Of a stretch of 33,019 nt of DNA, positions 1,599 through 31,868 are shown piece by piece (position 1 is the stretch's first letter; each line of letters begins with the position of its first letter). The stretch is from Candidatus Brocadia sp. (lineage in GTDB: Bacteria > Planctomycetota > Brocadiia > Brocadiales > Brocadiaceae): contig WYAU01000052.1 of the NCBI GenBank assembly GCA_011525665.1, forward strand, positions 1-33,019, written 5' to 3'. The translations under genes and the position numbers were made by a program. The notes beneath the pieces are model-generated. The model was not told the DNA's origin, made no database searches, and saw only the letters and a program-made list of their open reading frames with translations.

Positions 1599-1603
1599 TG
1601 CAT

Positions 1604-13967: not shown

Positions 13968-14021
13968 AGGCTTGTAAATGCCAGGAACGATTTCCGGTAA
14001 AATGCGGGGGGTGTTTTTATA

Positions 14022-14795: not shown

Positions 14796-14826
14796 ATTTA
14801 TTATTTGATAAAGGAGGAAAAAAACA

Positions 14827-15624: not shown

Positions 15625-15665
15625 TTTTAAATATTATTTGATAATTTTATCAAATGGAAAACCTC

Positions 15666-15700
15666 CCCCTCAATCCCTTCCTTGCGAAGGGATTGAGGGG
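15666..15700. repeat. 15-bp perfect hairpin, dispersed-repeat type
   Basis: CCCCTCAATCCCTTC and GAAGGGATTGAGGGG flank a five-base loop, 42 bases after the aldolase stop. No U-tract follows, but the stem is strong enough to act as an mRNA end or stability element. The rest of the 282-base gap to the next start holds no visible gene. Confidence 0.65.
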
Positions 15701-15906
15701 TGGTTATAAGACCGACAAAGATTCCGTGGTATAATAATGTAGTTGTAAGATTATAATAGCCTATTGCAGATGACGCAAGAAAGACGAAGAAAAAAGTTGA
15801 AAATCTCAACCTCTCCGCTTCCCAATTTTTCAACTCCCACAGTAGTAATTACCGCGCCCTCTGCTGCAAACAAACTTTGCGGAGAATTGAATGGGGAAAA
15901 AATGGT

Positions 15907-16941: not shown

Positions 16942-17003
16942 TAACAGGATGGGCGGCAACCGGAGAGACGGATTGAGTGGTGCCTAAGCGGGAGAAGTTG
17001 TGA

Positions 17004-17816
17004 ATGCCCGAATTACCCGAAGTTGAAACAATCAAGAATGAACTTGAGCCACACGTTGTCGGGCGGAGAGTTACCGGCGTCAGCCTGCCCTGGAAGGGGA
17101 TCGTGCGGGAGCCTTCGGTCAATCAGTTCCGCGCCCGCCTTATCGGGCAAAGAATCACTGGCCTGGCCCGCAGAGGCAAGTACCTCAGCTTCAGCCTGGA
17201 CAGTGGCGAAAGCCTGATCATTCACCTCAAGATGAGCGGCTCACTCCTGCTCAAGAGGAACTCGACGGATGACCGATTCGTGCGGGCTGTCATCAGCCTG
17301 GATGACGGCCTGGAGCTTTACTTCCGTGACCCGCGCAAGTTTGGCCGGATGTGGCTGGTGGACGACACCAGGACAGTCGTGGGCAAGCTGGGCCCGGAGC
17401 CACTTGAGACCGGCTTTACTGTGAAACTCCTGGCCGGGTTGCTGCGCGGTCGTGCTGCGCCGATAAAGGCGCTGCTTTGTGACCAGGACCTGATTGCCGG
17501 TATTGGCAACATGTATGCCGACGAGGCCCTGTTCGCCGCCGGGATTCACCCGCTGCGGCCAGGCGGTAGCCTGTCTGCGGACGAGGTAAAAAGGCTGCAT
17601 AACGCCATCAGGCAGGTGCTGCGGCAGGCTATCGGTAAGAAGGGGGCGAGCATCATCAACTACTACCGGCCGGATAGCGAGCTTGGTACGGCCCATTTCC
17701 ATTTCAGGGTGGCCCACCGGCGCGGCGAGGTGTGTTACAACTGTGGCACGCCCATACAGCGCATTACGGTGCGTAACCGCGGCACTTACTTTTGCCCCAG
17801 GTGCCAGCGCCAGTAG
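17004..17816 (+). CDS. mutM: Formamidopyrimidine-DNA glycosylase
   Basis: The 270-residue protein is a complete Fpg/MutM: catalytic N-terminal MPELPEVETIKN (Pro 2 and Glu 3 after Met removal), the HLKMSGSL strand with the beta-elimination lysine, the helix-two-turn-helix word IAGIGNMYADEALF and a C-terminal zinc finger with CYNCG and CPRC. It removes 8-oxoguanine and other oxidised purines and nicks the strand. The gene is GC-rich (63% and 68% in two 60-base lines I counted, against 43% in one line of the aldolase gene), which suggests transfer from a GC-rich organism. Intact motifs suggest it works. Confidence 0.96.
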   Translation: MPELPEVETIKNELEPHVVGRRVTGVSLPWKGIVREPSVNQFRARLIGQRITGLARRGKYLSFSLDSGESLIIHLKMSGSLLLKRNSTDDRFVRAVISLDDGLELYFRDPRKFGRMWLVDDTRTVVGKLGPEPLETGFTVKLLAGLLRGRAAPIKALLCDQDLIAGIGNMYADEALFAAGIHPLRPGGSLSADEVKRLHNAIRQVLRQAIGKKGASIINYYRPDSELGTAHFHFRVAHRRGEVCYNCGTPIQRITVRNRGTYFCPRCQRQ

Positions 17817-17862
17817 CCGGCAGGTACCCGGCATGCAAGGCATAACATACATAGTGAGGCTG

Positions 17863-17946
17863 TCACCACTTCTGCTGCTGTTTTTTCTGCCTGTATGAAT
17901 CGTCAAGCTCAAATTGAGCAGGTTTTAAAAAGCGGATTTTCATCAT
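17863..17946 (-). pseudogene. ParE/RelE-type toxin N-terminal fragment
   Basis: On the minus strand, after a double ATG (17946/17943), the codons read MKIRFLKPAQFELDDS, the usual opening of ParE/RelE-family toxins. The similarity then stops, and a low-complexity tail (RQKKQQQKW) ends at a TGA. Only the first 17 or so codons look real. It lies right behind a 35-base match to the AAA ATPase gene (17945-17979). Confidence 0.4.
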
Positions 17947-18748: not shown

Positions 18749-19516
18749 TTATTTTTCCTTCCCTGCGGCAGATTCACCCAACAGATAATATTCCTGCAAT
18801 TTTTTCCGCAAAATCTTTTTCGGTATGAGTTTTGTTTTATATTCAGCAACCAGCGCAGGAGAAAGATTGCGACTAAGCGCGTACTCCACTACTTCATCAT
18901 CCTTTGACTTGCACATAATAATACCCACGCTGGGATTTTCATCCGGCTTTTTCACATCCCTGTCCAAGGCTTCAAGGTAAAAATTTAGCTTACCCAGATA
19001 ATCGGGTTTAAAGTCGTCTATTTTCAGTTCAACTATTACCAAACACTTAAGCCCCCGGTGGAAGAAAAGCAGATCAATAAAATAATCGTTTTTACCAACC
19101 CGGATCCGGTATTCCTGACCAATAAAGGTAAAGTCCGTGCCGAACTCAAGAATGAAATGCTTTAAATTGGTAACAATACCACGTTGTAAATCTTTTTCAC
19201 TGTGGGTTTCGGGAAGGTTTAAGAAATCCAGAACATAGATGTCTTTAAATACCTCAATTGCGTCGGGACGGATTTGTGTCGCCGCTGGTGACACTTTCTT
19301 TTTGGAAATCATCACCCGTTCGTAATAACCGCTGTCAATCTGACGTTCGAGTTCACGTGAACTGTATTTCTCTTTGATGGAAAGCATCAGATAAAATTCG
19401 CGTTCTTCTTTTGACTTGGTTTTAGAAAGAATCAATAAATGGTTGGTCCAGCTTATTTGTGTCAGCACTGCTGACACAAATTTCTTCTGCCGATATATTT
19501 CGTAAAACTGCCGCAT
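18749..19516 (-). CDS. DUF1016/YhcG PDDEXK nuclease family protein, 5'-truncated
   Basis: The 255-residue product carries the middle and C-terminal parts of the family: ISWTNHLLILSKTKS, ELERQIDSGYYERV, and the nuclease core GTDFTFIGQEYRIRV, YFIDLLFFHRGLKCLVIVEL with Asp and Glu-x-Lys of the PD-(D/E)XK site, then NPSVGIIMCKSKDD. Family similarity continues upstream in frame to about 19591 (VDSLANYIQINHSEFKGF), where it meets an hsdS-like end, so about 65 N-terminal residues are missing, including the YWDIG motif. The ATG at 19516 is the first start. Family members often lie inside type I restriction loci; their role is not settled, though nuclease activity in defence or recombination is suspected. 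Confidence 0.8.
   Translation of the reverse strand: MRQFYEIYRQKKFVSAVLTQISWTNHLLILSKTKSKEEREFYLMLSIKEKYSSRELERQIDSGYYERVMISKKKVSPAATQIRPDAIEVFKDIYVLDFLNLPETHSEKDLQRGIVTNLKHFILEFGTDFTFIGQEYRIRVGKNDYFIDLLFFHRGLKCLVIVELKIDDFKPDYLGKLNFYLEALDRDVKKPDENPSVGIIMCKSKDDEVVEYALSRNLSPALVAEYKTKLIPKKILRKKLQEYYLLGESAAGKEK
19455..19481. repeat. DUF1016 linker palindrome A
   Basis: Perfect 13-bp arms ATTTGTGTCAGCA / TGCTGACACAAAT lie around a single base. On the minus strand it encodes FVSAVLTQ immediately before ISWTNH. The centre is the first base of a codon. Confidence 0.9.
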
Positions 19517-19604
19517 CCTGAAAAGTCCCCGGCGGGTAAATCCTTTAAATTCAGAATGATTGATCTGAATATAATTTGCCAGACTATCAACACTGCTGAG
19601 AGTT

Positions 19605-19815
19605 TTATGTCCGCCCGTTCGGCTTGTTATTTAAAGACTCTTTCTCGGCTTTAATTTTTCGAGGAGCGCTTCGGCTGAATTCTCACCGGATATTAAATCC
19701 TTGTGATCCTTGCGCCACTGTTCAGTCAGCTTGCCTTAAAAGCCCTACACCTTCCAATGCCTGCTTTTTTATCAAGTTTGGCAACGATTTTTTTGTAAAA
19801 GAGTCGTTGACCCTA
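19605..19815 (-). pseudogene. hsdS-like C-terminal fragment with repeat (scar 2)
   Basis: On the minus strand the codons read KLTEQWRKDHKDLISGENS, then AEALL, then (after a one-base deletion in an A-run) KIKAEKESLNNKPNGRT and TAA at 19605-19607, a typical HsdS C-terminus. Upstream, LLRQ and the LDK-type helix are present but frameshifted. Bases 19661-19745 are identical over 85 bases to 28043-28127. It leads directly into the truncated DUF1016 gene. Confidence 0.65.
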
Positions 19816-19999
19816 TTCCCCTAAACTAAATAAGTCAACTGCCTGTAACCTTGTGTTTTTACTGAGACGTAAGATGCAAAATGTTCAAAAATGATCTATA
19901 AACCACTATGCCAGTTCCCTGCCCTACCCTGCCCTTTAGATCGCAGAAACGACCATTTCGGATTGGACGATTTCTTGTTTTTTTGGCGGCAAAATCTCT
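19816..19999. repeat. Repeat-rich spacer, partner of 28204-28435
   Basis: Bases 19821-19900 closely match 28204-28280 (CTAAACTAAATAAGTCAACT and onward). Bases 19960-19994 are a shortened copy (middle removed) of the element GGATTGGACGA to TTGGCGGCAAA that is complete at 28361-28432 and 30516-30587. No gene is visible. Confidence 0.65.
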
Positions 20000-20503
20000 T
20001 TATTTATCTACTTTGTAATCTGCTTCCCCTTCTTCAATTCCTTTTCTGGCTTTTTCAAAAGCCCATTTAGGAATTTGAGGAGATTCTATATTTAATTTAT
20101 TCCTTCTGTCGTTAAGCTTCTTCAATTCTTCAATAACTTTACCATCGTCTAAGCTATTTACCTCAATATCATAAAATATCCTTGTATCATTACGCAAAGA
20201 GGTATACTTGTTCCCTGCTTTATGATGAACAGAGGCTCTTTCATTCGGATTAACAAAAGTAATTACTGCAGTCAAACCAGCTACGATAATAGAAAGTACC
20301 CCAGCAACTATAGTGTGATAATCGAAGTGCGAAAGCGCAGAAGCTCCAGCAATTGCTGAAAGTAGCGCAGAGATTCCGCCAAGCCACAAATGCACATTTC
20401 CCCAGCATTGACCGGCATAAAAATGTCCCTTTGCCGAATAAAGGCAGTCTTCTTCAATCCTTTTAGCTTCGGTTATTGTTTTTTCTTTATTTGTCATAGT
20501 CAT
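20000..20503 (-). CDS. SLATT-domain two-helix membrane protein (putative CBASS-type effector)
   Basis: The 167-residue protein has an N-terminal helix (KEKTITEAKRIEEDCLYSAK), two membrane segments (about residues 36-57 and 64-84) joined by a short loop, FVNPNERASVHHKAGNKYTS directly after the second, and a C-terminal charged helix. This is the layout of SLATT proteins, membrane effectors linked to nucleotide-signalling enzymes, thought to damage the cell membrane when a second messenger arrives. The gene immediately upstream (11 bases away) is a CD-NTase, which supports the assignment. Because that enzyme is truncated, the effector may no longer be triggered. Confidence 0.75.
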   Translation of the reverse strand: MTMTNKEKTITEAKRIEEDCLYSAKGHFYAGQCWGNVHLWLGGISALLSAIAGASALSHFDYHTIVAGVLSIIVAGLTAVITFVNPNERASVHHKAGNKYTSLRNDTRIFYDIEVNSLDDGKVIEELKKLNDRRNKLNIESPQIPKWAFEKARKGIEEGEADYKVDK

Positions 20504-20514
20504 AATATTTAGGT

Positions 20515-21219
20515 TTACCCATATGCAGGAAAGTAATCACCAAATATTTTTTTCCACTCATCAACTGCATTTTCAATGTAGCCCCTCCCTGCATAATCTT
20601 CGGCCTTGATTGCTCTATTATAGGCGGTTTCAAATTTACTTACAGCGTCCACAACCGTCGAACAATTTCTAAGCCCATTTATTTGCCCGCCATATGCTAC
20701 AGGGTCTTGCACTTTATATTTTATCGCCTCACGTCCTTTGTCAAAGAAAAACCTCATTCCACTTGGATAATCAGAAATAGTTATATTTTTGAAAATCTTA
20801 ATCGCTAATAGTTCCAAATAGAAAGAAATAAAAGCATAATTTATATTTTTATTCCAACCTTTTATCATTTTTACTATTGGCACCAAATCGCTATTATGAT
20901 TTATATTTTCACTACTCATGACATCAACATGAACTTTTGGATTTGTTGAAATCCAAGTTTTTTCCACTGAATTTGGTATTAAATAGCCGCCACCTTGACG
21001 ATTAAAAGCTGGTACAACATCAACAATAAAATCTGTAAACGTTACACTAACAGCCTGTCCGTTTCTGCTGATTTTTGGCGTTGTCGTATAGGTTTTTAGC
21101 AAAACCCTTTTTACTTTATCAAGTAGATTTGCTTGTCCGTCTACCTCATAATATTTCGGGTCCAATACAATAAAAATATCAATATCTGCTTCTGAAATCC
21201 GCCTCTTGCCGTAAGAGCA
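20515..21219 (-). pseudogene. CD-NTase (SMODS/cGAS-like nucleotidyltransferase), 5'-truncated
   Basis: The frame holds most of a CD-NTase: the metal-binding strand SEADIDIFIVLD, then LLDKVKRVLLKTY, the third acidic strand FIVDVVPAFNRQGGGYLIP and the C-terminal helical half (MIKGWNKNINYAF, then LELLAIKIF). Such enzymes make cyclic oligonucleotides that trigger effectors. The N-terminal helix and most of the GSY(A/G)xxT nucleotide-binding motif are gone. The open frame begins in hsdS-like DNA that happens to encode CSYGKRR directly before ISEAD. No ATG is available before the catalytic strand; the first alternative start is TTG at 21165. Activity is unlikely unless that fused end substitutes. 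Confidence 0.8.
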
Positions 21220-21300
21220 TCATCCCTTCTGATGTAGCCATCTCTTTATCAAATTTGGCAACGATTTTTGTAAAAGAGCCGCTGAACCTGTTATTCACTT
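21199..21300 (-). pseudogene. hsdS-like fragment fused to the CD-NTase (scar 3)
   Basis: Minus-strand codons read FTKIVAKFDKEMATSEGM, then MLLRQEAD, the same helical hsdS-like end as scar 1, and pass without a gap into the CD-NTase. The shared 19-base word is at 21199-21217. The lesion joins two genes at TCTTACGGCAAGAGG, which can be read as LLRQE in one frame and SYGKR in the other. Confidence 0.6.
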
Positions 21301-21352
21301 GTCCATCTCAGGCAATTCAGTATTATGTCCCCGGAATTTCCCTAGTCTATCC

Positions 21353-21823
21353 TTATTCAATAATTCCGCAAACTCTTTTGCCTTGAATTTTATTTATCAG
21401 TTTTTCAAGCATCCCGCCTTTGCTGACATAACCTATGGCGATTTCATCTGCCAGTTCAATCATAAATTGGTTTCTCTTTTCGGCTGTCTCAGAGGTAACG
21501 CGGTTTATGGATTTATCAAAAGGAGTAATTAACAATAATCTGTCTGCGTCAATAGCCGTTTTAATTTCCGGTTCGATTTTCTCTTTCATTCCCCGCGCCA
21601 ATGCTATGATTACCGGCTGTGTTCCTGAAAGCAGGTAATGGAATACGTCTTTTTCAATTTTTGAATGAAATCCACTAATTACGCATTTCCCTTTGTCCCG
21701 CTGTTCGATTGCCCAATCATAGCACTTCAATACTGCGGATGCCGGTATATTACGGCTGCAAAGAAAGGCCGTTTTGGGAAGATTTAATATATTTTTATTG
21801 CCTACAGACTCGACGATTTCCAC
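21353..21823 (-). CDS. DprA/SLOG-like nucleotide-binding protein
   Basis: The 156-residue protein shows the Rossmann-like SLOG pattern of DprA relatives: VISGFHSKIEKDVFHYLL, VIIALARGM, RLLLITPFD, SETAEKRNQFMIELAD and IAIGYVSKGGMLEKLI. DprA proteins bind single-stranded DNA; standalone SLOG proteins are suspected sensors or nucleotide-processing enzymes in defence loci. This one is shorter than DprA and lacks extra domains. Its start overlaps the end of the DUF1016 gene by 22 bases, so the two are probably read together. The C-terminus (QGKRVCGIIE) may have been altered by the junction that follows. Confidence 0.68.
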   Translation of the reverse strand: MEIVESVGNKNILNLPKTAFLCSRNIPASAVLKCYDWAIEQRDKGKCVISGFHSKIEKDVFHYLLSGTQPVIIALARGMKEKIEPEIKTAIDADRLLLITPFDKSINRVTSETAEKRNQFMIELADEIAIGYVSKGGMLEKLINKIQGKRVCGIIE

Positions 21824-22606
21824 TTGTCCCTCTTTTTGTGCTTTTTCCCCATCGTTTCTTTTCCAAGTTCTTTTTCAATCTCTTCCACCGTGGGCAGAAC
21901 TGATTTTAGTTTTTTCGGCAGGGCGCGGGTAAGCTCATAATCTGAAACGCCGATGGGTTTCTGTATGTCACGCATTGCATATTCTGCCAAAATACGATCC
22001 TTGGTCTGGCAAAGTATAAGGCCGATTGTTGGATTATCCGTTTCATGTTTTACTTTGTCATCAACCACCGAACAGTAGAAATTCATCTTCCCTGTGTATT
22101 CAGGCTTAAAGTCGCCTTTCTTTAAATCAATCACAAGAAAACATCGGAGTTTCAGATGATAGAAAAGCAGATCAATATAAAAATCTTTGTTACTGACCTC
22201 AATATGGTACTGCCGGCCAACAAAAGCAAAACCCGCGCCCAATTCAATCAGGAATTTTTCAAGATGCTGAATCAGACTTACCTCCAATTCCCGTTCATGA
22301 AATGGTTCTTCCAAGGTAAGAAAATCAAACACATATGGGTCTTTTAACATTTGAACAGCCATGTCAGATTGGGGAGTCGGAAGTCTCAAATGAAAATTGG
22401 TGACTGAAGTCCCTTGTCATTTGTGCAGCTTGTTCTTTATCATAAGATCCATTACATCACGGCTCCAGCCATTTTCAAGGGCTTGCCACATATACCAAAA
22501 GCGAGTCTGCATATCTTTGACCTTTTCCATCAGCAGAATATTGTGTCCCCATGGTATTTTTGCGATGAGATTGTGTAAAATTATCAGGACAGCACCATCG
22601 TTTGTT

Positions 22607-22627
22607 TTTGCCACAGATTGTGGCAAA
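22607..22627. repeat. DUF1016 linker palindrome B1
   Basis: Perfect 9-bp arms TTTGCCACA / TGTGGCAAA lie around GAT. On the minus strand it encodes LPQSVAK and is centred on the first base of a codon. Confidence 0.85.
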
Positions 22628-22671
22628 TTCTTAGCTTTTCCCTTTGGAATGGTGGAATCCATCGGAGTAAT

Positions 22672-22706
22672 ATTCAATTTTGCCACAACCTGTGGCAAAA
22701 TTGAAT
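22672..22706. repeat. DUF1016 linker palindrome B2
   Basis: Perfect 16-bp arms ATTCAATTTTGCCACA / TGTGGCAAAATTGAAT lie around ACC. It encodes SILPQVVAKLN on the minus strand, again centred on the first base of a codon. It shares its inner core with B1. Confidence 0.92.
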
Positions 22707-22985
22707 TCCGCCCGGAATATTCGCGGTAAAAGGCAATCATACGCCCTATGTTTCGCTCAGAAAAGCCTTTCACTTCTGGTAATTCATTGCGTAAATATTT
22801 TGCTAATCGGGGAATGACGGCGCTTCCCCAACCTTCTCTATGCTGGCGTTCATCAATTATCCGTCCAATATCCCAATACATCAAAATCATTTCGGCATTG
22901 GCTGACAGGACTGCTTTAGTTTGTGCCTGACGAATGCGGATTTTTATCGCAGAAAGCAGGTCTGCATAACGCATTAATTCAGCGC

Positions 22986-23097
22986 TCATGTATTATCCTC
23001 CTCACTGTCCAGTTCCTTACCCATACGATACTTGATGTCGTAGTTGATGATGAAGTCAAGCTCTTCGTGGGTGAAACCGTAATTTCTGTTAAGTCCC
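22986..23097 (-). pseudogene. C-terminal fragment of an Eco57I-type DNA methylase
   Basis: Upstream of the split DUF1016 gene the codons read NRNYGFTHEELDFIINYDI, then KYRMGKE and a short acidic tail ending in TGA, overlapping the DUF1016 ATG by ATGA. YGFTxEELDFIINYDIKYRMG is a common end of Eco57I-like restriction-modification methylases. The rest of the methylase has been lost and the AAA ATPase gene lies there instead. Confidence 0.65.
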
Positions 23098-23128
23098 CCC
23101 TTAACAATTGGGGACCAAGGGTGTCCGC

Positions 23129-25549
23129 TTAATACGCTTTCCGCCTCTTGCCGCAAGAACACTTTACTGTATTTTCAATATTGTCGTAATATTTTTTGGA
23201 AATAAGATTGTTACACTGATCACATCTGAAAAGGCCTTCCAACTCCAAAACGTCACCGTAAAACATTTTCAGGTCATCAATACTTTCAGTGAATGTACTA
23301 TCATGGGAAGTTCGGTTGCCGAGAAACATGGAAGCATTAAGCCTATCAAATACAGGTTGATCTTTTAATTCACATTTTCTGTCTTTAAGTTTGCCCTTTA
23401 ATTCCGACAGCAATTCATTAGACATTCTATTTTCATTATGCTCATTGAAAAGAAACTTTACCTTAACTTCAAGGTTAAAGCAGACATCCTTTAAAAGCCG
23501 TTCAAGGTATTTGCGTATCATGTTCCCTAATTCTGAGGAATCTGAACTTTTAAGCTTCGTTTCAATTCTTTCTTTTAAATCAATTAAAGGCTCTTCAATA
23601 CTTGCCCCGCCCTCATGTTCCCATCTCATTTTTTTAATTAGCCAGTTTTTACCTTTAACCATGTTTGAGACAATCTCAAACCAATCCTTTTCATGGGTAA
23701 AAAGAAATATCTGATAATCATTGAATTTTTCCACCAAAAGTCTTGCAAAGAGAGCGCGATGATTTGTATCAAAGCTGGATATTACATCATCAAGGACAAT
23801 AAACTTATTGAACTTATTAAAAGCCTTTACAGACGCTAAGAACAAGCATATCCCAAGACAATTCAAATGAGATTCGCTCAGATACTTGTGCGGTGGCGAT
23901 TCCGATTTCCCATGAAATTTGAATTGGAGCGTTATTCCCAAAAACTCATCATCTGCGCCCAAAGGAATAAGCTCTATCTCGCTGACATTTTCAGAAGTAT
24001 TCATAAACAAATAAAGGTCGTTCATGTATCTGGATATAGACTCCAAGAATGCACAAAGACCTTCTCGTTGTTTTTTTACGAAATCGTTATAAATAAGTTC
24101 CATAGATTGTTGTTGCTGAGTAAGAACCTCTGAAGCCTTTTTCATGGATTTGATTTCATCATAGAATTGCCTGACGGAAAATACCTTGCTATAGACTGTA
24201 AAGGTCTGATCTTCTTTTTTTCCGGTAATTATCTTTGACTTTTTATCTATAAAGGAAGAATTCAAATCTTGCAAAAAGGTCGCATCCAAATCGATAAAAT
24301 CTTCAGGCTTACTGACTTGTTCAATTTCGGAAATATCAGTTTTTTGAAGTTTCTCTAAAGCAGTTGAGATTATTTCCTTAAGCCGTTCAACTTTTTTTCG
24401 TAAATCAGCATTTTCATCCAGGAGCATGCTCTTCTCTTTTAACGCATTGTTTATTTCAGTTATAGCTCCTTGAACAAATCTTTGAGTTGTATCTTTTTCA
24501 TCTATTGCGGCTTCCTTTTCTTTTTTAACAATAGTCAATTCTTCAAGTCTCTTTCTTAACTCATCAATTAATTCTTCTCTGCTTTTATCTTGCAGGCAAA
24601 GAGGGCATCTATCCTCCTCGTATAATCTCTTTTCAAGAATTGAAAACCCTTGTGACAATAGTGGCTCAAGACCTATTTTTTTAAGCTTATCTTGATCGTT
24701 GGCAATCTGCTGATACTTTTTATAGAAAGACTTATAAGAGGAGCAAATATTGTCAAAAGAAGCCTTGAAATTGCTTAAATTTTCAATAATTTTTTCATAT
24801 GAAAGCTGTTGCTCGACAGCCTCTTTATCTTCCGGTTTCTTTAGCAGTTCCAGCACATTATTTATGCCTGCATCGTCTTTAATCTCAACAGACAGATTCA
24901 GCGGAGCAACTAATTCTTTGATGGCATTCAAATATTGGTTATCGTCAAAAATGCTTTGCCCTATCTGCTCCATTACTGAACGCTGCTTTATGCTTATATG
25001 ATTGTTATAATCCTTTATTTTCTGCTCTTTCTTTAACTCACCGACAGCTTTTTTAAAGATACCTTTTACTTTTGATACCTCAGAAAAACCTATTATTTGT
25101 GAAATTTCTTCAAGTTTCTCCGCCTTAGTAGATAAAATAAACCTCAATAAATCCTTATATCTAAGGATAAGATTTTCTTTTAACGATGTGCTTAGATAAT
25201 CTTTGAAATCCTGCGAAGCATTTGAATGCTCGATGGTAAGTTTTGATTTTTTGAGAAATAACCTTTTCGTTGAATCATATTTTGAATTCGAGTATTTCAG
25301 ATCAAAGTAAGCATCTTGGTTATCCGATAAAAAAGTATTTCTCAGGGCAGTAATACCCTTTATATCAATTTCTTCTGATGTAAGATGTTTTACCTTGTCG
25401 TAATAAAACCATTCAAAGGCATCTGCGATGGAGCTTTTTCCACTGCCGTTATCACCATAAATGAGAACTGACTTGCCTGGACTCAAATCAAGATTAACAA
25501 TTTTTCTAATTCCTCTAATACCGCATATTTCAAGGTTTTTGACTTTCAT
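23129..25549 (-). CDS. Zinc-hook AAA/SMC-type ATPase, likely defence protein
   Basis: The 806-residue protein is a RecF/Rad50-like ATPase. It has Walker A YGDNGSGKSS (about 31-40), coiled coil on both sides of a CPLC zinc-hook (about 315), signature YLSESHLNCLGICLFLA (about 556), Walker B KFIVLDDVISSFD (about 582) and an H-loop LFTHEKDW. A C-terminal helical domain with GNRTSHDS (about 744-751) resembles the Arg-x-x-His part of HEPN-like domains, but loosely. A zinc ribbon follows (CDQCNN, then CSCGK). The last residues KRRKAY are encoded by hsdS-like DNA (word at 23141-23159), so the natural end is replaced. It is the last gene of a four-gene cassette and its ATG overlaps the preceding stop (ATGA). 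RloC and PrrC relatives are similar in outline, but identity is not established. Confidence 0.8.
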   Translation of the reverse strand: MKVKNLEICGIRGIRKIVNLDLSPGKSVLIYGDNGSGKSSIADAFEWFYYDKVKHLTSEEIDIKGITALRNTFLSDNQDAYFDLKYSNSKYDSTKRLFLKKSKLTIEHSNASQDFKDYLSTSLKENLILRYKDLLRFILSTKAEKLEEISQIIGFSEVSKVKGIFKKAVGELKKEQKIKDYNNHISIKQRSVMEQIGQSIFDDNQYLNAIKELVAPLNLSVEIKDDAGINNVLELLKKPEDKEAVEQQLSYEKIIENLSNFKASFDNICSSYKSFYKKYQQIANDQDKLKKIGLEPLLSQGFSILEKRLYEEDRCPLCLQDKSREELIDELRKRLEELTIVKKEKEAAIDEKDTTQRFVQGAITEINNALKEKSMLLDENADLRKKVERLKEIISTALEKLQKTDISEIEQVSKPEDFIDLDATFLQDLNSSFIDKKSKIITGKKEDQTFTVYSKVFSVRQFYDEIKSMKKASEVLTQQQQSMELIYNDFVKKQREGLCAFLESISRYMNDLYLFMNTSENVSEIELIPLGADDEFLGITLQFKFHGKSESPPHKYLSESHLNCLGICLFLASVKAFNKFNKFIVLDDVISSFDTNHRALFARLLVEKFNDYQIFLFTHEKDWFEIVSNMVKGKNWLIKKMRWEHEGGASIEEPLIDLKERIETKLKSSDSSELGNMIRKYLERLLKDVCFNLEVKVKFLFNEHNENRMSNELLSELKGKLKDRKCELKDQPVFDRLNASMFLGNRTSHDSTFTESIDDLKMFYGDVLELEGLFRCDQCNNLISKKYYDNIENTVKCSCGKRRKAY

Positions 25550-25722
25550 TTTTTATCCCTTATGCGGCTCAACTCATTTGACAAATTTGTATTAGTCAAC
25601 TTGCCGTCTTTATATAATTTCAGAACTGACTCGGCAACATCTTTATCCACTCCGTCAATATTCGTTATTTGAGAAAAGAACTCATCAAGTATTTCCTGTC
25701 CACTCTTGATTTGTTCAGTCAT
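25546..25722 (-). CDS. Small 58-residue protein between GIY-YIG and AAA genes
   Basis: An uninterrupted small gene reads MTEQIKSGQEILDEFFSQI, then DGVDKDVAESVLKLYKDGKL and SNELSRIRDKK. GGAGC lies upstream. Its start is three bases after the GIY-YIG stop, and its stop overlaps the AAA ATG (ATGA), so it is certain to be coupled to them. The sequence is helical and charged, with no known domain. It could be a subunit or a regulator of the ATPase. Confidence 0.75.
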   Translation of the reverse strand: MTEQIKSGQEILDEFFSQITNIDGVDKDVAESVLKLYKDGKLTNTNLSNELSRIRDKK

Positions 25723-25725
25723 GTT

Positions 25726-26187
25726 CTATGCTCCTTTTTCAAAGTACTTCCAGTTTATTTCAAGGGTTACCGGTACGTCGTGCTTTTTAATCTCAAATCC
25801 ACTCTTGTTATTGCAGATAGGATAAACGCCGTACTTATCCAAAAAATCAAGGATAAAATAACTTTCTAAGTCTTCTATACGGTGCTTCCATATCTGTTTT
25901 AACATCTCAAAATTCAGATAGGTAAAAAAAAGCCCTTGTGTATTCTTGTAATTAACAATACCTTCGTTTCCAGATATGCCCTCAAAGTGGTCTGAAAGCC
26001 TCTTACCTATACTGTTAGTCTTTTTCTCACTCATGCCTATATAAATCAGCCGCGATTTTTTGAAAGGATATGGAATTTCTATCTCTTTTAAAAAGATAAA
26101 ATAAAGCCCGCATATCCCCATTAGTGGCTTGATATTCCGCAATTCAAAATCCTGCGGCTTGTCAAAGTTGATTTTGAAAATTTGCAT
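25726..26187 (-). CDS. GIY-YIG family nuclease domain protein
   Basis: The 153-residue protein shows the GIY-YIG layout: GICGLYFIF (about 24-32) for the GIY word, RLIYIGMSE (about 46-54) for YIG, an Arg in GKRLSDHF (about 61-68), a Glu in EDLESYFILDFL (about 106) and PICNNKSGFE after it. These are the metal and catalytic positions of the fold, which cuts DNA in UvrC, homing and some restriction enzymes. It begins one base after the stop of the upstream gene and ends three bases before a 58-codon gene, so it works with them as an operon. Confidence 0.8.
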   Translation of the reverse strand: MQIFKINFDKPQDFELRNIKPLMGICGLYFIFLKEIEIPYPFKKSRLIYIGMSEKKTNSIGKRLSDHFEGISGNEGIVNYKNTQGLFFTYLNFEMLKQIWKHRIEDLESYFILDFLDKYGVYPICNNKSGFEIKKHDVPVTLEINWKYFEKGA

Positions 26188-26188
26188 T

Positions 26189-26734
26189 TTATCGGACTCT
26201 TCGTATTGAATGATGACAACCAGCTTGTGCTGGAATAGAAAAAGCAGATTTATTAATCACCGGCCAATATTTGGCTCTATGCCCATCATATATGATTTTT
26301 GTATCTACAATTTGCCCCTCATGACTACTACAGTCGCCAGGCTCCCATTTTGCATCTTTGACTCTGTATACCTGACATTTTTCAATTCCCTTTGTAAGTA
26401 ATTTCTTTGACAATCCACGCACATACCATGTATTAAATTCAGAAAAAGCTAACTGTTCTGATGCCTGTTGATAATTTATAATCCTTTCTTTTGTTACACC
26501 GTTTCGCGTATATACTTCCTTTTCCTTCCAATAATCTTGGCGTCTTAAAGATGTTTCAAGTGACTCAGCATCTCCTGATATAATTGCTTTTTTCATTAGT
26601 TCCGGAAATATTTTCTTACCAATGTCTGATAGTCGGGGACTGATGTAAGGATTTATTGAGCTTTGCTCAATATCAAATTCTTGCAACATAAATTTTCTGG
26701 TCTCATCATCTAATTCTTCAAAATCAGATTTCAT
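26189..26734 (-). CDS. Unknown 181-residue protein, first gene of the nuclease-ATPase cassette
   Basis: I do not recognise this protein. It starts MKSDFEELDDETRKFMLQEF and has a helical N-terminal half, then NTWYVRGLSKKLL, CQVYRVKDAKWEPGDCSSHE and a C-terminal part with HRAKYWPVI and SIPAQAGCHHSIRRVR. Several Cys and His are present (CSSH, GCHH). AAGGAGAA precedes the ATG. The gene is one base upstream of the GIY-YIG gene, so it belongs to the cassette, and could be its recognition or regulatory part. Confidence 0.7.
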   Translation of the reverse strand: MKSDFEELDDETRKFMLQEFDIEQSSINPYISPRLSDIGKKIFPELMKKAIISGDAESLETSLRRQDYWKEKEVYTRNGVTKERIINYQQASEQLAFSEFNTWYVRGLSKKLLTKGIEKCQVYRVKDAKWEPGDCSSHEGQIVDTKIIYDGHRAKYWPVINKSAFSIPAQAGCHHSIRRVR

Positions 26735-26775
26735 GTTAAGATTCTCCTTCTTTAAATTTATTTTCTTACAAACTC

Positions 26776-26883
26776 TTAAGGAGTCATGAGTTCACAGAAC
26801 TCCCCGACCTTTTTCACTTTTACTTTTTCTTTAAGCCAGTGCGCATAAGTTTCGACAAATTGATCGCAATCCAAGACACTCAT
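26776..26883 (-). pseudogene. DUF1828-type fragment of 35 codons
   Basis: Codons read MSVLDCDQFVETYAHWLKEK, then VGEFCELMTP and TAA. This resembles the beginning of DUF1828 proteins (small proteins of unknown role), cut after CELMTP. The DNA from 26837 onward recurs at 28915, where the same opening codons are fused to other genes. Confidence 0.5.
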
Positions 26884-26972
26884 ATGAATAACCCTCTTTT
26901 TATACAGGCATATCTTGTACATTGGAGTATCTTACAAAAATTTGGGTCTTCTAAGTTTTGTCGGGTAAATTT

Positions 26973-28007
26973 TCATGATTCCAGCTTTAATTCCTGCAGT
27001 ATCGGCAGTTTCAGGTCTTGGACATCAGGAAGCTTTCCTTTGAACGCCTTGGGCAGTCTCTTTGTGAGGTAATATTCGGCCACCCCTATTGGTTTTTTGA
27101 CACTGCGCAATGCATATTCAACTACTATGTTATCTTTATCCGCGCATAAAATAATGCCTACGGATGAATTCTCATCTTTCATCTTCACCTGTTCATCCAA
27201 AAGATGCAGATAAAAATCCATCTTCCCCGCGTATTCGGGTTCAAACCCGCCGGTTTTAAGCTCAAGCGCCACAAGACATTTAAGTTTTCGGTTGTAAAAC
27301 AAGAGATCAATAAAATATTCATTATTACCCAATGTCAGGCGGTACTGATTGCCGATAAACGAAAATCCAAACCCAAGTTCTAATATGAATTGCTTTATTT
27401 TCTCCACAAGCCTCTTTTCCAGTTCTCGTTCCAAAACCGGTTTTGTGATGCCGAGAAAACCCAAGCAGTAAGCGCTCTTTATGGTTTCGTCCGCCTGCTC
27501 GGCAAGATGCACGGGCAGGGTTTTCGGAAAATTGTGTATTTTATGTTTCAGGCTAAGTGGGTAAGCACCGGCTTTTATCTGGTTGAGAAGCACATTCCTT
27601 GACCAACCAAAATCACGAGACGATCTGATATAATATTCCCGTTCTTTATCATCGGTCAATTTCTCCATAATCAATAAATTATGTCCCCAGGGTATTTCTG
27701 CAACAAGCTGTTGCAGAAATGGCTTATCTTTATATTCCTCGTAAAATCTGCGCATATTCCAGAGGTTTCTTCCTGAAAAACCAAATGATTCCGGAAATGC
27801 CTCTCTCAAATCACGGGCAAGAGCTTCAACAATATTGTCGCCCCACGTATATTTTTTCTGCCTCTCTACAATTGCTTTGCCGATATCCCAGTATAATTTT
27901 ATCAGCTTTTTATTAACCGACCGAACGGTCTGTATCCGCGCCGTAGCGATACGCGTTTTAATCTCGTTCAAGAAATTGAGATACTCTTTGCTTATAACCT
28001 TTTTCAT
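26973..28007 (-). CDS. DUF1016/YhcG PDDEXK nuclease family protein, full length
   Basis: The 344-residue protein is an intact family member. The N-terminal helical domain has LIKLYWDIGKAIVERQ, SGRNLWNMRRFYEEY and IPWGHNLLIMEKL. The C-terminal nuclease domain has FSFIGNQYRLTL, YFIDLLFYNRKLKCLVALELK with the Asp and Glu-x-Lys pair, and NSSVGIILCADKD. Its ATG overlaps the stop of an hsdS-like fragment (ATGA), as expected inside a type I restriction operon. The linker holds palindrome C. The C-terminal LPDVQDLKLPILQELKLES is extra. Of the five copies this one is the most normal. Confidence 0.9.
   Translation of the reverse strand: MKKVISKEYLNFLNEIKTRIATARIQTVRSVNKKLIKLYWDIGKAIVERQKKYTWGDNIVEALARDLREAFPESFGFSGRNLWNMRRFYEEYKDKPFLQQLVAEIPWGHNLLIMEKLTDDKEREYYIRSSRDFGWSRNVLLNQIKAGAYPLSLKHKIHNFPKTLPVHLAEQADETIKSAYCLGFLGITKPVLERELEKRLVEKIKQFILELGFGFSFIGNQYRLTLGNNEYFIDLLFYNRKLKCLVALELKTGGFEPEYAGKMDFYLHLLDEQVKMKDENSSVGIILCADKDNIVVEYALRSVKKPIGVAEYYLTKRLPKAFKGKLPDVQDLKLPILQELKLES
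27694..27720. repeat. DUF1016 linker palindrome C
   Basis: Perfect 12-bp arms ATTTCTGCAACA / TGTTGCAGAAAT lie around AGC. On the minus strand it encodes FLQQLVAE directly before IPWGHN; the centre is the first base of a codon. Confidence 0.92.
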
Positions 28008-28205
28008 TCTAATTTTCCAATCTTTCCGGCTTTAATCTTTTTGAGGAGCGCTTCGGCTGAATTCTCACCGGATATTAAATCCTTGTGATCCTTGCGCCAC
28101 TGTTCAGTCAGCTTGCCTTAAAAGCCCCATGACTTTCAATGCTTCGATTTCTTTATCAAGTCTGGCAATGATTTTTTATAAAAGAATCGCTGTCCCTATT
28201 TGCCT
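28004..28205 (-). pseudogene. hsdS-like C-terminal fragment (scar 4), duplicate of scar 2
   Basis: Codons read KLTEQWRKDHKDLISGENS, then AEALLKKIKAGKIGKLE and TGA overlapping the DUF1016 start. Upstream, ILL-stop-KIIARLDKEIEALKV and LLRQ have a nonsense codon and a frame change. Bases 28043-28127 are identical to 19661-19745. Both copies share the same internal deletion between LLRQA and LTEQ, so they stem from one event followed by duplication. Confidence 0.65.
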
Positions 28206-28446
28206 AAACTAAATAAGTCAACTGCCTGTAACCTTGTGCTTTCTTGAGACGTAAGATGCAAAATGTTCAAAAAGGGATATAAACAGGTCTGCCAAACCTA
28301 AACCACTACGCCAGTTCACCGCTCTAACCTGCTCCTTATGCCCACAAAAGCGCCCCTTTCGGATTGGACGACTTCTATTTTTTCGTCCCGCTTTTTGAAG
28401 GACTCATAGTTTCACGCTGTTTGGCGGCAAATCCCTTTTAATTTTA
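28206..28446. repeat. Repeat-rich spacer
   Basis: Bases 28204-28280 match 19821-19900. Bases 28361-28432 are a full copy of an element also found at 30516-30587 and, shortened, at 19960-19994. I see no gene in it. Confidence 0.6.
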
Positions 28447-28618
28447 TCAATATCCGTCTTTAACATCCAATTCAATAATTTCCCACCCGCCAATTTTACT
28501 TTTAATAGCATTAAACCGATCTTGGTGAAGAGCAAAACATAATAAATGCGTGGGGGCGTGACATAGCTACATAAGCAATTTTTGCCGTCTCCTTTTCGGT
28601 TTTATTTGAAAATGTATT
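28447..28618 (-). pseudogene. Superfamily I (UvrD-like) helicase C-terminal fragment
   Basis: On the minus strand the codons read NKTEKETAKIAYVAMSRPH, then, after a frame change, FALHQDRFNAIKSKIGGWEI and a stop. TAKIAYVAMSRP is the motif VI region of UvrD-type helicases. Only about 55 codons remain, in two frames, between repeats. Confidence 0.5.
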
Positions 28619-28658
28619 GCCCTACCCGCAAAAGCACTTTGACAACCTATCTGATTCA
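28602..28658. repeat. 57-base repeat, copy 1
   Basis: This segment (TTATTTGAAAATGTATTGCC onward to TATCTGATTCA) agrees with 30605-30661 at 55 of 57 positions. Here it lies between the helicase and DUF1016 remnants; the other copy lies after the 30,687 DUF1016 gene. Confidence 0.85.
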
Positions 28659-28815
28659 CGCCTTGTTTCTTTCTTAAAATATCGAATATAGAAATCCCGT
28701 GCTGACTCATTATCAACCCGCATCAGCAACCGGTAAATGCGTCCAACTCCATTGGCTACGCAGTGCGTCGCCAATTGGAAATGTCAGGTAAAACTGCCTC
28801 ATATTTTTTACATTG
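28622..28815 (-). pseudogene. DUF1016 remnant with internal deletion
   Basis: Minus-strand codons read RQFYLTFPIGDALRSQWSWTH, then, after one extra T near 28735, RLLMRVDNESARDFYIRYFKKE and a stop at 28622. The first part matches the middle of the family. YIRYFKKE matches a place about 150 residues later in the 30,687 gene (YIRYFEKE). Both sites share GATTTCTATATTCG or a close form, so the middle was probably lost by recombination between them. Confidence 0.65.
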
Positions 28816-28961
28816 GACACTTTCACATTTTTTAATCTTAAATAAATTATCCCGTAAAAGGAAACTCCTTCATTAATCGCTAATGTACCAAAATCTACAT
28901 CATGGGTAATAAGCCAGTGCGCATAAGTTTCGACAAGTTGATAGCAATCCAAAACACTCAT
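28713..28961 (-). CDS. Chimeric 82-residue ORF made of three gene pieces
   Basis: The ORF joins MSVLDCYQLVETYAHWL (opening of the DUF1828-type fragment also seen at 26,883), ITHDVDFGTLAINEG with FYGIIYLRLKN (a DUF5615/PIN-like toxin piece), and MRQFYLTFPIGDALRS with WSWTH (DUF1016). It is uninterrupted and could be translated, but each part is incomplete, so it is probably a by-product of rearrangement. Confidence 0.45.
   Translation of the reverse strand: MSVLDCYQLVETYAHWLITHDVDFGTLAINEGVSFYGIIYLRLKNVKVSNVKNMRQFYLTFPIGDALRSQWSWTHLPVADAG
28751..28775. repeat. DUF1016 linker palindrome D
   Basis: Arms ATTGGCTACGCA / TGCGTCGCCAAT lie around one base with a single mismatch. On the minus strand it encodes IGDALRSQ directly before WSWTH; the centre is the first base of a codon, as in the other copies. 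Confidence 0.82.
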
Positions 28962-29215
28962 ATGAATAATCTTCTTTGTATATTGGAAAACTCTTGCACA
29001 TTACAGTATCTCAAAAATTTTTCATGACGTTATAAAGATTGTTATTTGAATTTGCTAATTCATCAGGTGCCGGTATTGCCCACCTACTTGCAAAACCCTC
29101 GACATAGATATGAAGATGTGGGCATGAATCTCGATCCCATTATAAGGTACAAGAAAATCAAGAGGAACGCCCGCGACTACAAGATTCGGATGACTTTAAT
29201 TGGCGATAGGTGGTG
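28962..29215 (-). other. Spacer with a possible gene scrap
   Basis: No complete gene is visible. On the minus strand two frames together read VPYNGIEIHAHIF and PHLHIYVEGFASRWAIPAPDE, which look like one small protein broken by a frameshift. I cannot name its family with confidence. Bases 28915-28980 repeat 26837-26905. Confidence 0.3.
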
Positions 29216-29554
29216 TTAGAAATTGTTCAGATATGCTTTGATTCTTTCACAGTTTTCATTTTCCTTGTCGCCCTTATAATATATCTCGATAAAAACAATC
29301 CTCAAATCATTACAATGGAAAGCATAAATAATCCGCAGAGAAGAACCCTTTAGATAGCGGCAAAACAAACGCGCCTTTACGACAGTGCAACGGTCATTTT
29401 TTGTTACAATACTAAAATGTTTACTGTTTCCCAAAGGCTCAACAGTGATTACGTGTTTAAACTCCTCCAGGTCATCCGGCAATGATTTGTATTTTTTACT
29501 CATCCGCTTAAATTCTTTGGCAAATTCCGGCAGTTCATTAAAGTTCATCGTCAT
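29216..29554 (-). CDS. RelE-like toxin of a toxin-antitoxin pair
   Basis: The 112-residue protein has the RelE/HigB pattern: FAKEFKRMSKKYKSLPDDLEEF helices (FxKxFKKLxKKYxSL), then VKARLFCRYLKG, SLRIIYAFHCNDLRIVFIEIYYKGD and a final helix ERIKAYL. Such toxins cut mRNA at the ribosome. It overlaps the upstream antitoxin gene by 17 bases, so its production depends on antitoxin translation. The catalytic residues of RelE toxins are variable and I cannot confirm activity. Confidence 0.75.
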   Translation of the reverse strand: MTMNFNELPEFAKEFKRMSKKYKSLPDDLEEFKHVITVEPLGNSKHFSIVTKNDRCTVVKARLFCRYLKGSSLRIIYAFHCNDLRIVFIEIYYKGDKENENCERIKAYLNNF

Positions 29555-30332
29555 AGTTTCTTACTGAATAACGTTCGTCCCGATAGAACACGCTTTCATA
29601 AGAAATTGGCTGACCTTCCTTTGCCGCTTTCCACGGCATATCCTCGTGAGAGTAATTTTCTATTTCTTTAGCATTTTTATCAGAAAGACGAGCCAGAACT
29701 TCCTCTATATGACCAATTTCTCGTGCCGAAAGGGCATTAAGATCGGCTCGCTTAACCGGCAGATATTTTTTTTGCAAATGGTTAAAATATTTGCTTTTTA
29801 CCGCTTCAATCTCGCCGTTTCTCTGCATATCTTTTAAAATCGTCCCCAACTCAACCGATGTCGGTCCGTGATGATTTTTAATGTAAGTCGCCCCCATTAA
29901 GTTTTCTTCATACTTTTCATAATAATCAAAATCGATAAAATAAAGAAGTTTATGAAGTACGGTTTCGCCTACATTTGGCTTGCTGCCGACTTTTTCCAGA
30001 ATATAAAGCAACACCTGCTTGAATTTATCAAGATTCTTTCGCGTTACGCGGATTTGAAGACCGGCATCTGCTTTTTTATCTACACCCGCTTTTTCTAAAA
30101 TAACCTCATGTCTTGGCTCTTTGCCGGTTAAAAAATCGTCAAAAGAAATGCCAAAAATATCTGCAAGTATTTTTGCAGCGGAAATAGTTAAATCCTTCCC
30201 GCCCTGCTCGATTTGGATATAGGTAGGACGGGATACGCCAATCTTTGATGCCAGATACTCCTGCGTCAGATTGTGCTTTTTGCGCATGTGTTGGATGAAT
30301 TTTGGAAGTTTGGAAACATGATAGTTAGCCAT
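29538..30332 (-). CDS. Antitoxin with XRE HTH and Panacea (DUF4065) domains
   Basis: The 264-residue protein begins with an XRE-type helix-turn-helix (IQHMRKKHNLTQEYLASKI, then GVSRPTYIQIEQGGKDLTIS), followed by a Panacea/DUF4065-like domain: LYFIDFDYYEKYEENLMGAT, IKNHHGPTSVELGTILKDM, LSAREIGHIEEVLARLSD and WKAAKEGQPISYESVFYRDE. Panacea domains act as the neutralising part of many different toxin-antitoxin pairs, and here the DNA-binding part would give self-repression. The gene directly precedes and overlaps a RelE-like toxin. Starts at the ATG with no better upstream alternative. Confidence 0.85.
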   Translation of the reverse strand: MANYHVSKLPKFIQHMRKKHNLTQEYLASKIGVSRPTYIQIEQGGKDLTISAAKILADIFGISFDDFLTGKEPRHEVILEKAGVDKKADAGLQIRVTRKNLDKFKQVLLYILEKVGSKPNVGETVLHKLLYFIDFDYYEKYEENLMGATYIKNHHGPTSVELGTILKDMQRNGEIEAVKSKYFNHLQKKYLPVKRADLNALSAREIGHIEEVLARLSDKNAKEIENYSHEDMPWKAAKEGQPISYESVFYRDERYSVRNYDDEL

Positions 30333-30686
30333 ATATATCTCCCAAAAATAGACTTTGATTCTTTACGGTATCACAATATTATTTCTTACGTTATTATGTT
30401 AATCTATGTAAATATATTTATCAATTAAAATGTAAATAATATTGACAATCGTAAAAATAGCCAAGCAGCAGGCAAGGATTCAGCCCTCCCTTCCGCCCGC
30501 AGAAGCGACCCTTTAGGATTGGACGATTTCTATTTTTCCGTTCCGCTTTTGGAAGGACTCATGGTTTTAAGCTGTTTGGCGGCAAATTCGTTTTGAATCC
30601 GGTATTATTTGAAAATGTATTGCCTTGCCCGCAAAAGCACTTTGACAACCTATCTGATTCATGCTTTTTTTATTTTTTACAACGCT
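30333..30686. repeat. Spacer with two repeats
   Basis: The AT-rich part next to the antitoxin (30340-30460) probably holds its promoter; no clear boxes were picked. Bases 30516-30587 and 30605-30661 are second copies of the repeats at 28361-28432 and 28602-28658. There is no gene. Confidence 0.6.
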
Positions 30687-31793
30687 TCAGGTTTTTCCCT
30701 TTTGATGTTTTTTGATTTCCCTCTCTAGTGCCAGTTTTTCTCTTTGCAATTCCTCTATCAGCTCTTTTTCAGTAGGCAAATAGAGTTTGTATTTCGAGGC
30801 AAAGACGTTCTTGCTGTTTTCAAGGAGCGTATAACGCGCCATAGCCTCATTTTTCTCGGCGCAGAGAATCAATCCGATTGTAGGGTTGTCTTCTGCATGC
30901 TTTATTTCTTTCTCAAAATATCGAATATAGAAATCCATCTGACCGATATCCTGATGGGTTAGCTTGCCGACTTTCAGATCAATAAGCACGAAGCATTTCA
31001 GAATAAAGTTGTAGAAGACAAGGTCGATATAAAAGTGATCGCCATCTATAGTTATCCGTTTCTGTCGGGACACAAATGAGAATCCCTTTCCAAGTTCCAA
31101 AAGGAAATCTTGCAGTTTGTCTATCAGACCTTGTTCCAACTCCTTTTCAAGATAATCTCTGTTCTCCTTCAGCCCAAGAAATTCAAGAACATAAGGGTCT
31201 TTTATAACATCGTGGGGTGTCGCTGACGGTTCAATCTTCTGTATTTCAGTCCTTACCCGTCTTTTGTTTTTGCTTGCTAGGATGCGCTCGTAGTAGAAGG
31301 AGTTTATTTGCCGCTCCAACTGGCGTGTGCTCCAGTTTCCGGCGATGCACTCGTCAAGATAGAATTTACGGACAGCAGGCCGCTCTACTTTTAAAAGCAA
31401 CCGGTAGTGGGTCCAAGAGAGTTCCGGTCGGATTACGGGTAATTCGTCACGCAGTGCGTGATGAATCTTATCAGGTAAAAATTGTGAACGCTCTGCGTTC
31501 AGAATCTCGAATGACAGGTAAAACAACCGCATATATCGCAAATTCGTTTCAGTAAAACCTTTTCCAAAATCCCTGGTTAAACGTATTGATAGTTCCTTTA
31601 AAAGATACTCACCATATCCAGCCTTTGCTTTGCCCCGCTGTTCTTCCTCAACAATAAGTTTGCCGATGTTCCAATACGCCTGAACCATAGCAACATTGAC
31701 GGCAGAGTAAGCCGTCTTTCTGGCATCTTCAAGAATCTGCCTAATGTTTCGATAAGCAGTATCTATTGGCTTGGAAATTATGTTTTTATCCAT
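30687..31793 (-). CDS. DUF1016/YhcG PDDEXK nuclease family protein, full length
   Basis: From the ATG at 31793 (MDKNIISKPIDTAYRNIRQ) the product has about 368 residues. It contains VQAYWNIGKLIVEEEQ, RDFGKGFTETNLRYMRLFY, LSWTHYRLLLKVERP, ERQINSFYYERIL and the nuclease core FSFVSRQKRITI, FYIDLVFYNFILKCFVLIDLK, NPTIGLILCAEKNE. The start is chosen because the codons before it belong to an hsdS-like end (stop 31795-31797), one base away. The linker holds two palindromes (E1, E2). This DUF1016 is of a different subtype from the 26,973 gene, with LSWTHY in place of IPWGHN. Confidence 0.88.
   Translation of the reverse strand: MDKNIISKPIDTAYRNIRQILEDARKTAYSAVNVAMVQAYWNIGKLIVEEEQRGKAKAGYGEYLLKELSIRLTRDFGKGFTETNLRYMRLFYLSFEILNAERSQFLPDKIHHALRDELPVIRPELSWTHYRLLLKVERPAVRKFYLDECIAGNWSTRQLERQINSFYYERILASKNKRRVRTEIQKIEPSATPHDVIKDPYVLEFLGLKENRDYLEKELEQGLIDKLQDFLLELGKGFSFVSRQKRITIDGDHFYIDLVFYNFILKCFVLIDLKVGKLTHQDIGQMDFYIRYFEKEIKHAEDNPTIGLILCAEKNEAMARYTLLENSKNVFASKYKLYLPTEKELIEELQREKLALEREIKKHQKGKT
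31442..31466. repeat. DUF1016 linker palindrome E1
   Basis: Arms ATTCGTCACGCA / TGCGTGATGAAT lie around one base; the only mismatch is a G:T pair. It encodes IHHALRDE on the minus strand, seven residues before LSWTHY; the centre is the first base of a codon. Confidence 0.85.
31481..31505. repeat. DUF1016 linker palindrome E2
   Basis: Arms ATTGTGAACGC / GCGTTCAGAAT lie around TCT with one mismatch. It encodes ILNAERSQ on the minus strand and is in the same codon phase as E1, 14 bases away. Confidence 0.82.
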
Positions 31794-31794
31794 T

Positions 31795-31868
31795 TTAACC
31801 GTTTCCCTCTCCCCACACCTCGGCAATAATTCTTTCAATACAACTTTCCGCCTTTTGGTGCAAGAGGT
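31795..31868 (-). pseudogene. hsdS-like 3' end (scar 5)
   Basis: Codons read VHLLHQKAESCIERIIAEV, then WGEGNG and TAA, one base before the DUF1016 start. It matches scar 1 (RLLRQEAGRRIERMIAEVW). The shared 19-base word appears as a diverged copy at 31848-31866. It begins just after the stop of the unknown 357-residue gene. Confidence 0.6.

Follow-up and report, generated by a model that had tools for sequence, protein, structure and literature searches.

The window analysed here is a stretch of 33,019 nucleotides (contig WYAU01000052.1, positions 1 to 33,019) of the 3.63 Mb genome of a Candidatus Brocadia sp., and it carries a compact cassette encoding a coiled-coil ATPase with a zinc hook, a protein of 58 amino acids (aa), a GIY-YIG nuclease and a protein of 181 aa. 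The conserved unit consists of three of these genes (GIY-YIG nuclease, small protein and zinc-hook ATPase), and not of four. This three-gene unit is probably an unnamed Lamassu/Rad50-like anti-invader system with a putative defence activity, in which the ATPase and the small protein would sense DNA and license cleavage by the nuclease. The initial annotation of the cassette was made from the letters and a list of open reading frames (ORFs) only; the present analysis is a database, locus and structure follow-up of the same ORFs. Checking the window reproduced the coordinates and lengths of the four tightly spaced ORFs (Table 1), all on the minus strand, as well as the intergenic gaps of 1, 3 and -4 bases.

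Co-occurrence and distribution of the three genes

Relatives of the 806-aa ATPase were searched in one genome per species, and nine loci were returned. The close relatives of the window genome itself are Candidatus Brocadia assemblies, so that it is very probably that of an anammox planctomycete. Homologues of the GIY-YIG nuclease (66-92% identity) and of the 58-aa protein (44-93% identity) are encoded directly upstream in all eight loci with a complete ATPase; the ninth ATPase relative, which is cut and begins at residue 281, has neither gene. Additional GIY-YIG loci were found on an Aliiroseovarius plasmid, in another genome of the order to which the window belongs, in a genome of its genus, and in two more genomes of a Nitrospirota sample. 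All three genes occur together in 14/14 GIY-YIG loci (the window and 13 others), which cover five phyla; this is the opposite of homologues that are never found together, and it upholds the earlier proposal that these genes form one unit. The GIY-YIG gene is divergently oriented in two loci (the plasmid locus L011, and L022) and still adjoins the small gene and the ATPase gene, so the linkage survives rearrangement.

In the Nitrospirota phylum sample (295 genomes), the five GIY-YIG-positive genomes are exactly those with the five best matches to the ATPase C-terminus, and six weaker ATPase matches are without a GIY-YIG nuclease. GIY-linked ATPases form a single clade in a tree of 28 ATPases (support 100/100). 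Across the 14 loci, pairwise distances between nucleases, between small proteins and between ATPases are correlated (r 0.94-0.97). Conservation is higher for the nuclease than for the ATPase in 91 of 91 pairs. Ratios of nonsynonymous to synonymous substitution rates (dN/dS) between relatives were about 0.12-0.16 for the ATPase, 0.03-0.05 for the nuclease, 0.13 for the 181-aa gene and, in informative pairs, 0.14-0.17 for the 58-aa gene, whose closest pair was too similar to judge. All four genes are under purifying selection (dN/dS 0.03-0.17 in informative pairs), and this, together with the adjacent homologues of the 58-aa, 153-aa and 806-aa proteins at 13 other loci, speaks against chance ORFs.

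Occurrence is patchy (3 of 199, 5 of the 295 Nitrospirota-sample and 1 of 345 genomes). The Aliiroseovarius plasmid copy lies beside a transposition module, in the window the G + C content falls to 34-35%, as against 45.5% in bases 1-17900, and Kiwa, Shedu, SIR2, OLD and PDC-S06 genes neighbour the cassettes of relatives. Patchiness, plasmid occurrence, low G + C content and defence neighbours together fit a mobile defence module, and such a distribution suggests an anti-invader function. The same data bear on a housekeeping role as an SbcCD/Rad50-type DNA-repair complex in which a GIY-YIG nuclease replaces Mre11. GIY-YIG nucleases (UvrC) do function in repair, and the fold of the ATPase is Rad50-like, but this role is made very unlikely by the rarity and patchiness of the cassette within genus and phylum, by the plasmid copy with its transposition module, by the low G + C content and defence neighbourhoods, and by the variable fourth gene.

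A viral origin or carriage of the cassette found no support: viral contigs searched with the nuclease, the 181-aa protein and the ATPase gave no match, such single-protein scans reaching close relatives only, and the ATPase had no match among phage records. As regards neighbours of individual cassettes, a Kiwa-type KwaAB pair (5802-7287; PADLOC) lies directly upstream of the cassette in L021 and similar ORFs (725-2237) in L002, and a PDC-S06 (RloC/PrrC-like) ATPase (8956-11217) is located upstream of a WYL-like gene and the cassette in L031.

The zinc-hook ATPase

The CPLC hook recognised in the initial annotation is conserved, C315, P316 and C318 being invariant in a 13-sequence alignment and a CPxC hook being present in 28/28 ATPases checked. 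In the same alignment D587-D588 are invariant, and the LDD motif is found in 27 of 28 related ATPases. The predicted model of the ATPase (mean predicted local distance difference test, pLDDT, of 70) has Rad50 as its best fold match (Z 15.9 over 318 residues, root-mean-square deviation 4.6), and the LmuAB-DNA structure 9ux7 is among its fold matches (E 2.5e-6). This Rad50/LmuB-like body suggests DNA sensing. Similarity to AAA_13 is weak, and the PDC-S06 profile matches the window ATPase with E 1.7e-10, as against 5.6e-176 for the true member beside the L031 cassette.

Both the GNRTSHDS motif and the C-terminal CxxC...CxC are conserved features of the ATPase family, and R679, E683, N745 and H749 of the C-terminus are conserved as well. 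The C-terminus had been called HEPN-like, a description that is not supported: N745xxxH749 is conserved, but the position of the HEPN arginine is occupied by G, A, I or another residue and not by R, so that the catalytic arginine of RxxxxH is not conserved. Resemblance to DUF4145 is weak (2 of 19 members, E 0.026), and the domain may be at most a non-catalytic DUF4145-like domain; no solved relative was found by sequence, and the fold comparison barely reached beyond residue 657. Relatives end roughly in CSCGK-L-K-Y-N-W-K-K and the window ATPase in CSCGKRRKAY. The end of the zinc ribbon had been thought to be replaced by hsdS-like DNA; the last residues truly differ from those of relatives, but all four ribbon cysteines are retained. 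An hsdS-like origin of the joined DNA was not confirmed; its only matches were 71 bp at another place in the genome, where no gene could be identified, and 36 bp at another position of the window.

The small partner protein

The small gene overlaps the start of the ATPase gene by 4-32 bp in 14/14 loci (4 bp in the window), and this conserved overlap suggests a stoichiometric complex of the two proteins. The gene stays with the ATPase gene where the GIY-YIG gene is divergent, and it also accompanies ATPases without a GIY-YIG nuclease. A toxin-antitoxin pair, wherein a nuclease toxin would be restrained by a 58-aa antitoxin and merely modulated by the ATPase, would agree with the small size of the protein and with its position next to the nuclease; this interpretation is rejected as extremely improbable, because the small gene goes with the ATPase gene and not with the nuclease gene. 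Concerning its fold, a PDB profile search gave chance-level matches only (E 0.08 and worse). GMT-wHTH matched 3 of 13 members of the small-protein family (best E 0.0016), the window protein being below the Pfam cut-off.

The GIY-YIG nuclease

The GIY and YIG motifs and the catalytic Arg, Glu and Asn are all present in the 153-aa protein, and residues G27, Y29, Y49-I50-G51, R63, E108 and N126 are invariant in 14/14 loci. Strict conservation of this active site suggests that cleavage is the output of the system. A separate 400-aa Bacteroidales protein (L032, 2011-3213) has a diverged GIY-YIG-like C-terminus and is unlinked to the ATPase family.

The variable upstream slot

The four-gene unit of the initial annotation stood for the nuclease, the 58-aa protein and the ATPase, which are linked, and fell for the 181-aa protein, which occupies a variable slot. 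Among 59 close genomes, the 181-aa protein is common only to the window and G106, of the same genus (76% identity), and it is absent from the other cassette loci; a four-gene core was therefore rejected, and the 181-aa gene is a swappable extra rather than a core component. Relatives of this protein are encoded in defence neighbourhoods of unrelated plasmids (Hymenobacter and Rhodococcus), with DUF2235, ThiF, ABC-3C or AbiEii genes close by, and one Erwinia jumbo phage also encodes a relative. Different genes lie directly upstream of the nuclease gene at other loci (Table 1). Between L003 and L021, whose fourth genes differ, DNA identity is 93-96% in the small gene and the ATPase head and 85% in the GIY-YIG gene; between the window and L002 the values are 97% and 91% (small gene and ATPase head) versus 84% in the GIY-YIG gene, along which identity rises from 77% to 95%. 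These patterns would fit recombination within the conserved nuclease gene that swaps the content of the upstream slot.

Small-protein/ATPase dyads in other defence loci

Small-protein/ATPase dyads also occur without GIY-YIG. One of them lies in an archaeal (Halorhabdus) BREX-5 locus (L013, 4805-7469), where it is flanked by pglX and pglZ. In three Nitrospirota loci (L057, L058, L059) a related zinc-hook ATPase has a DrmD-like SNF2 helicase on one side and type III Mod/Res genes on the other, and is accompanied in L057 and L059 by a partner ORF of 68-80 aa. On a Planctomycetota contig (L060), the DrmD-like helicase and the ATPase are joined by a PD-Lambda-5_A-like protein, a Dam-type methylase and a partial Mod gene. 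We tentatively consider, at slightly under even odds, that the dyad is a general, so far unnamed sensor module recruited by many defence chassis, among them BREX-5, type III restriction with a DrmD-like helicase and perhaps sets of the caspase/TIR type, and that in one clade it has developed into a self-contained three-gene system driving its own GIY-YIG nuclease, with an exchangeable fourth slot. At a further locus (L056, 4129-8124) a related ATPase adjoins a caspase-like gene and a second gene that may be TIR-like, the latter without a profile hit.

Proposed function

In the anti-invader system proposed here, the ATPase would dimerise via its zinc hook to form a Rad50/Lamassu-like DNA-sensing clamp, and the 58-aa protein, translationally coupled to the ATPase, would be a stoichiometric subunit of this clamp. 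On encountering DNA that is foreign or abnormal (e.g. free ends or replication intermediates), the complex would undergo an ATP-driven rearrangement that activates or recruits the GIY-YIG nuclease, and the DNA would be cut. An exchangeable accessory or regulator may be encoded in the upstream slot, which holds the 181-aa gene in the window and WYL-like, KTSC or other genes at other loci. Complex formation and the role of DNA as both trigger and substrate are what we infer, and the outcome may be cutting of the invader only or killing of the cell.

Several points weigh against this proposal. Dyads without GIY-YIG occur often, including on many plasmids, so the dyad must be able to function by itself or with different partners. 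The nuclease has a Pfam GIY-YIG score of 18.0, under the curated cut-off of 22.4, and its AlphaFold model is poor (pLDDT 38) and unusable for a fold search, although the strand-strand-helix-strand-helix order fits GIY-YIG; its putative identity rests on the motifs, on this secondary-structure order and on the NCBI label of the Aliiroseovarius homologue. In the window, finally, the ATPase with its altered tail may be impaired.

The system would extend the Rad50/Lamassu-like class of immune ATPases by a GIY-YIG nuclease type and by a mini-subunit that is always present, in lineages (anammox planctomycetes and Nitrospirota) where few defences have been studied. The same dyad within BREX-5 and type III restriction loci gives a comparative handle on coiled-coil ATPase sensing and effector switching, and the three-gene core is small enough for direct testing.

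Genomic setting in the window

The cassette had been placed among defence genes, and profile searches bear this out, with YhcG/DUF1016 nucleases, a CBASS-like 2TM effector and a Panacea-type antitoxin nearby. YhcG/DUF1016 nucleases are present several times, as copies or fragments, over window positions 18749-31838. A CBASS-like pair (20000-21165) comprises a 2TM/SLATT effector and a cyclase that aligns to profile positions 77-285 only, so that its N-terminal part, the expected site of catalysis, seems to be missing. A DprA/PsyrA-like fragment (21353-21823) covers profile positions 123-255 of 398.

Table 1. Features of the cassette, motifs of the ATPase, other window features and genes in the upstream slot of related loci
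Feature	Location	Strand	Basis or remark
Coiled-coil ABC ATPase, 806 aa	window 23129-25549	-	ORF, motifs, profiles, predicted model
Small partner protein, 58 aa	window 25546-25722	-	ORF, homologues adjacent to ATPase
GIY-YIG nuclease, 153 aa	window 25726-26187	-	ORF, motif residues
Accessory protein, variable fourth slot, 181 aa	window 26189-26734	-	ORF, related to phrog_30545
Altered tail of ATPase, RRKAY (roughly LKYNWKK in relatives)	window 23129-23150	-	alignment; directly past last zinc ligand
Walker A	ATPase residues G32-S39		
CPLC zinc hook	ATPase residues C315-C318		
Signature LSESHLNCLG	ATPase residues about 557-566		
Walker B LDD	ATPase residues 586-588		
C-terminal helical domain	ATPase residues R679, E683, N745-xxx-H749		
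Zinc ribbon CxxC...CxC	ATPase residues C776, C779, C797, C799		
YhcG/DUF1016 copies or fragments	window 18749-19516; 21802-22989 (two ORFs); 26973-28007; 28713-28961; 30687-31838		profile matches
WYL-like protein, about 100 aa, directly upstream of GIY-YIG	L002, L004, L006, L030, L031		Pfam WYL matches weak
KTSC-domain protein directly upstream of GIY-YIG	L003, L007		
Shedu-type nuclease directly upstream of GIY-YIG	L010		

Comparison with named systems

No PADLOC-DB 2.0.0, Pfam or NCBIfam model names the gene set, in line with the initial annotation, which gave no named system for this combination. A literature search found no named system of a GIY-YIG nuclease with a zinc-hook ATPase, which is weak evidence, as subscription papers were outside the search and a named description may exist.

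The cassette is like Lamassu/ABC-3C systems (LmuA-LmuC-LmuB, DdmABC) in having a zinc-hook coiled-coil ABC ATPase, a small middle gene and a nuclease effector in the same order, and PADLOC LmuB is the best named profile for the ATPase (E 2.8e-25, residues 1-632). Effectors vary among Lamassu systems, and zinc hooks are present in many LmuB proteins (PMC10586767). Strict membership, with the ATPase as LmuB, the 58-aa protein as LmuC/MC and the GIY-YIG protein as LmuA, acting by abortive infection, nevertheless appears unlikely on several grounds. Replacement of the Walker B glutamate by glutamine is a general trait of LmuB (PMC10586767), whereas the cassette has LDD with an invariant D588. Its ATPase is about 800 aa long and carries an extra C-terminal helical domain and zinc ribbon, as compared with about 650 aa for LmuB. 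In profile searches, no MC or ABC-3C effector-docking family matched the small protein in its middle-gene position, and the 153-aa protein is a lone GIY-YIG domain that matched no LmuA or ABC-3C domain, including the LmuA docking domain. The nuclease, moreover, is divergently encoded in two loci.

A coiled-coil ABC ATPase with an obligate small partner is likewise found in the CxC-ABC ATPase-DndE, PbeABCD and DndDE systems. These dyads are a conceptual parallel: ABC-ATPase-DndE neighbourhoods reportedly can include URI (GIY-YIG) nucleases, at times on the opposite strand (PMC10853773), and PADLOC PbeC matches the N-terminus of the cassette ATPase (E 5.7e-8). Very little credence can be given, however, to a dyad of this CxC-ABC/DndD-DndE type (PbeC/PbeD-like), in which the small protein would bind DNA in the manner of DndE and have the URI nuclease as its effector. 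In CxC-ABC/DndE dyads the hook is CxC and the partner contains two RHH domains (PMC10853773), whereas the cassette hook is CPxC and the 58-aa partner seems too short for two RHH units and has no DndE/PbeD match in PADLOC. No DNA-modification genes (phosphorothioate or cytosine methylase) are adjacent to the cassette in the window.

With Mre11-Rad50/SbcCD the cassette ATPase shares the head fold (Z 15.9) and the zinc hook. It differs by its short coiled coil, its extra C-terminal domain, its sporadic distribution and its GIY-YIG partner in place of a calcineurin-like nuclease, none being encoded in the window unit. SNIPE (PD-lambda-1) has a GIY-YIG domain that serves phage defence, but it is a single membrane protein with DUF4041 and without an ATPase (PMC13190303). 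RloC/PrrC and PDC-S06 (AAA_13) also have an ABC ATPase, to which the weak AAA_13 similarity relates, whereas the nuclease of the cassette is a separate GIY-YIG gene. The cassette is accordingly filed among the coiled-coil-ABC-ATPase defence systems, outside any named family.

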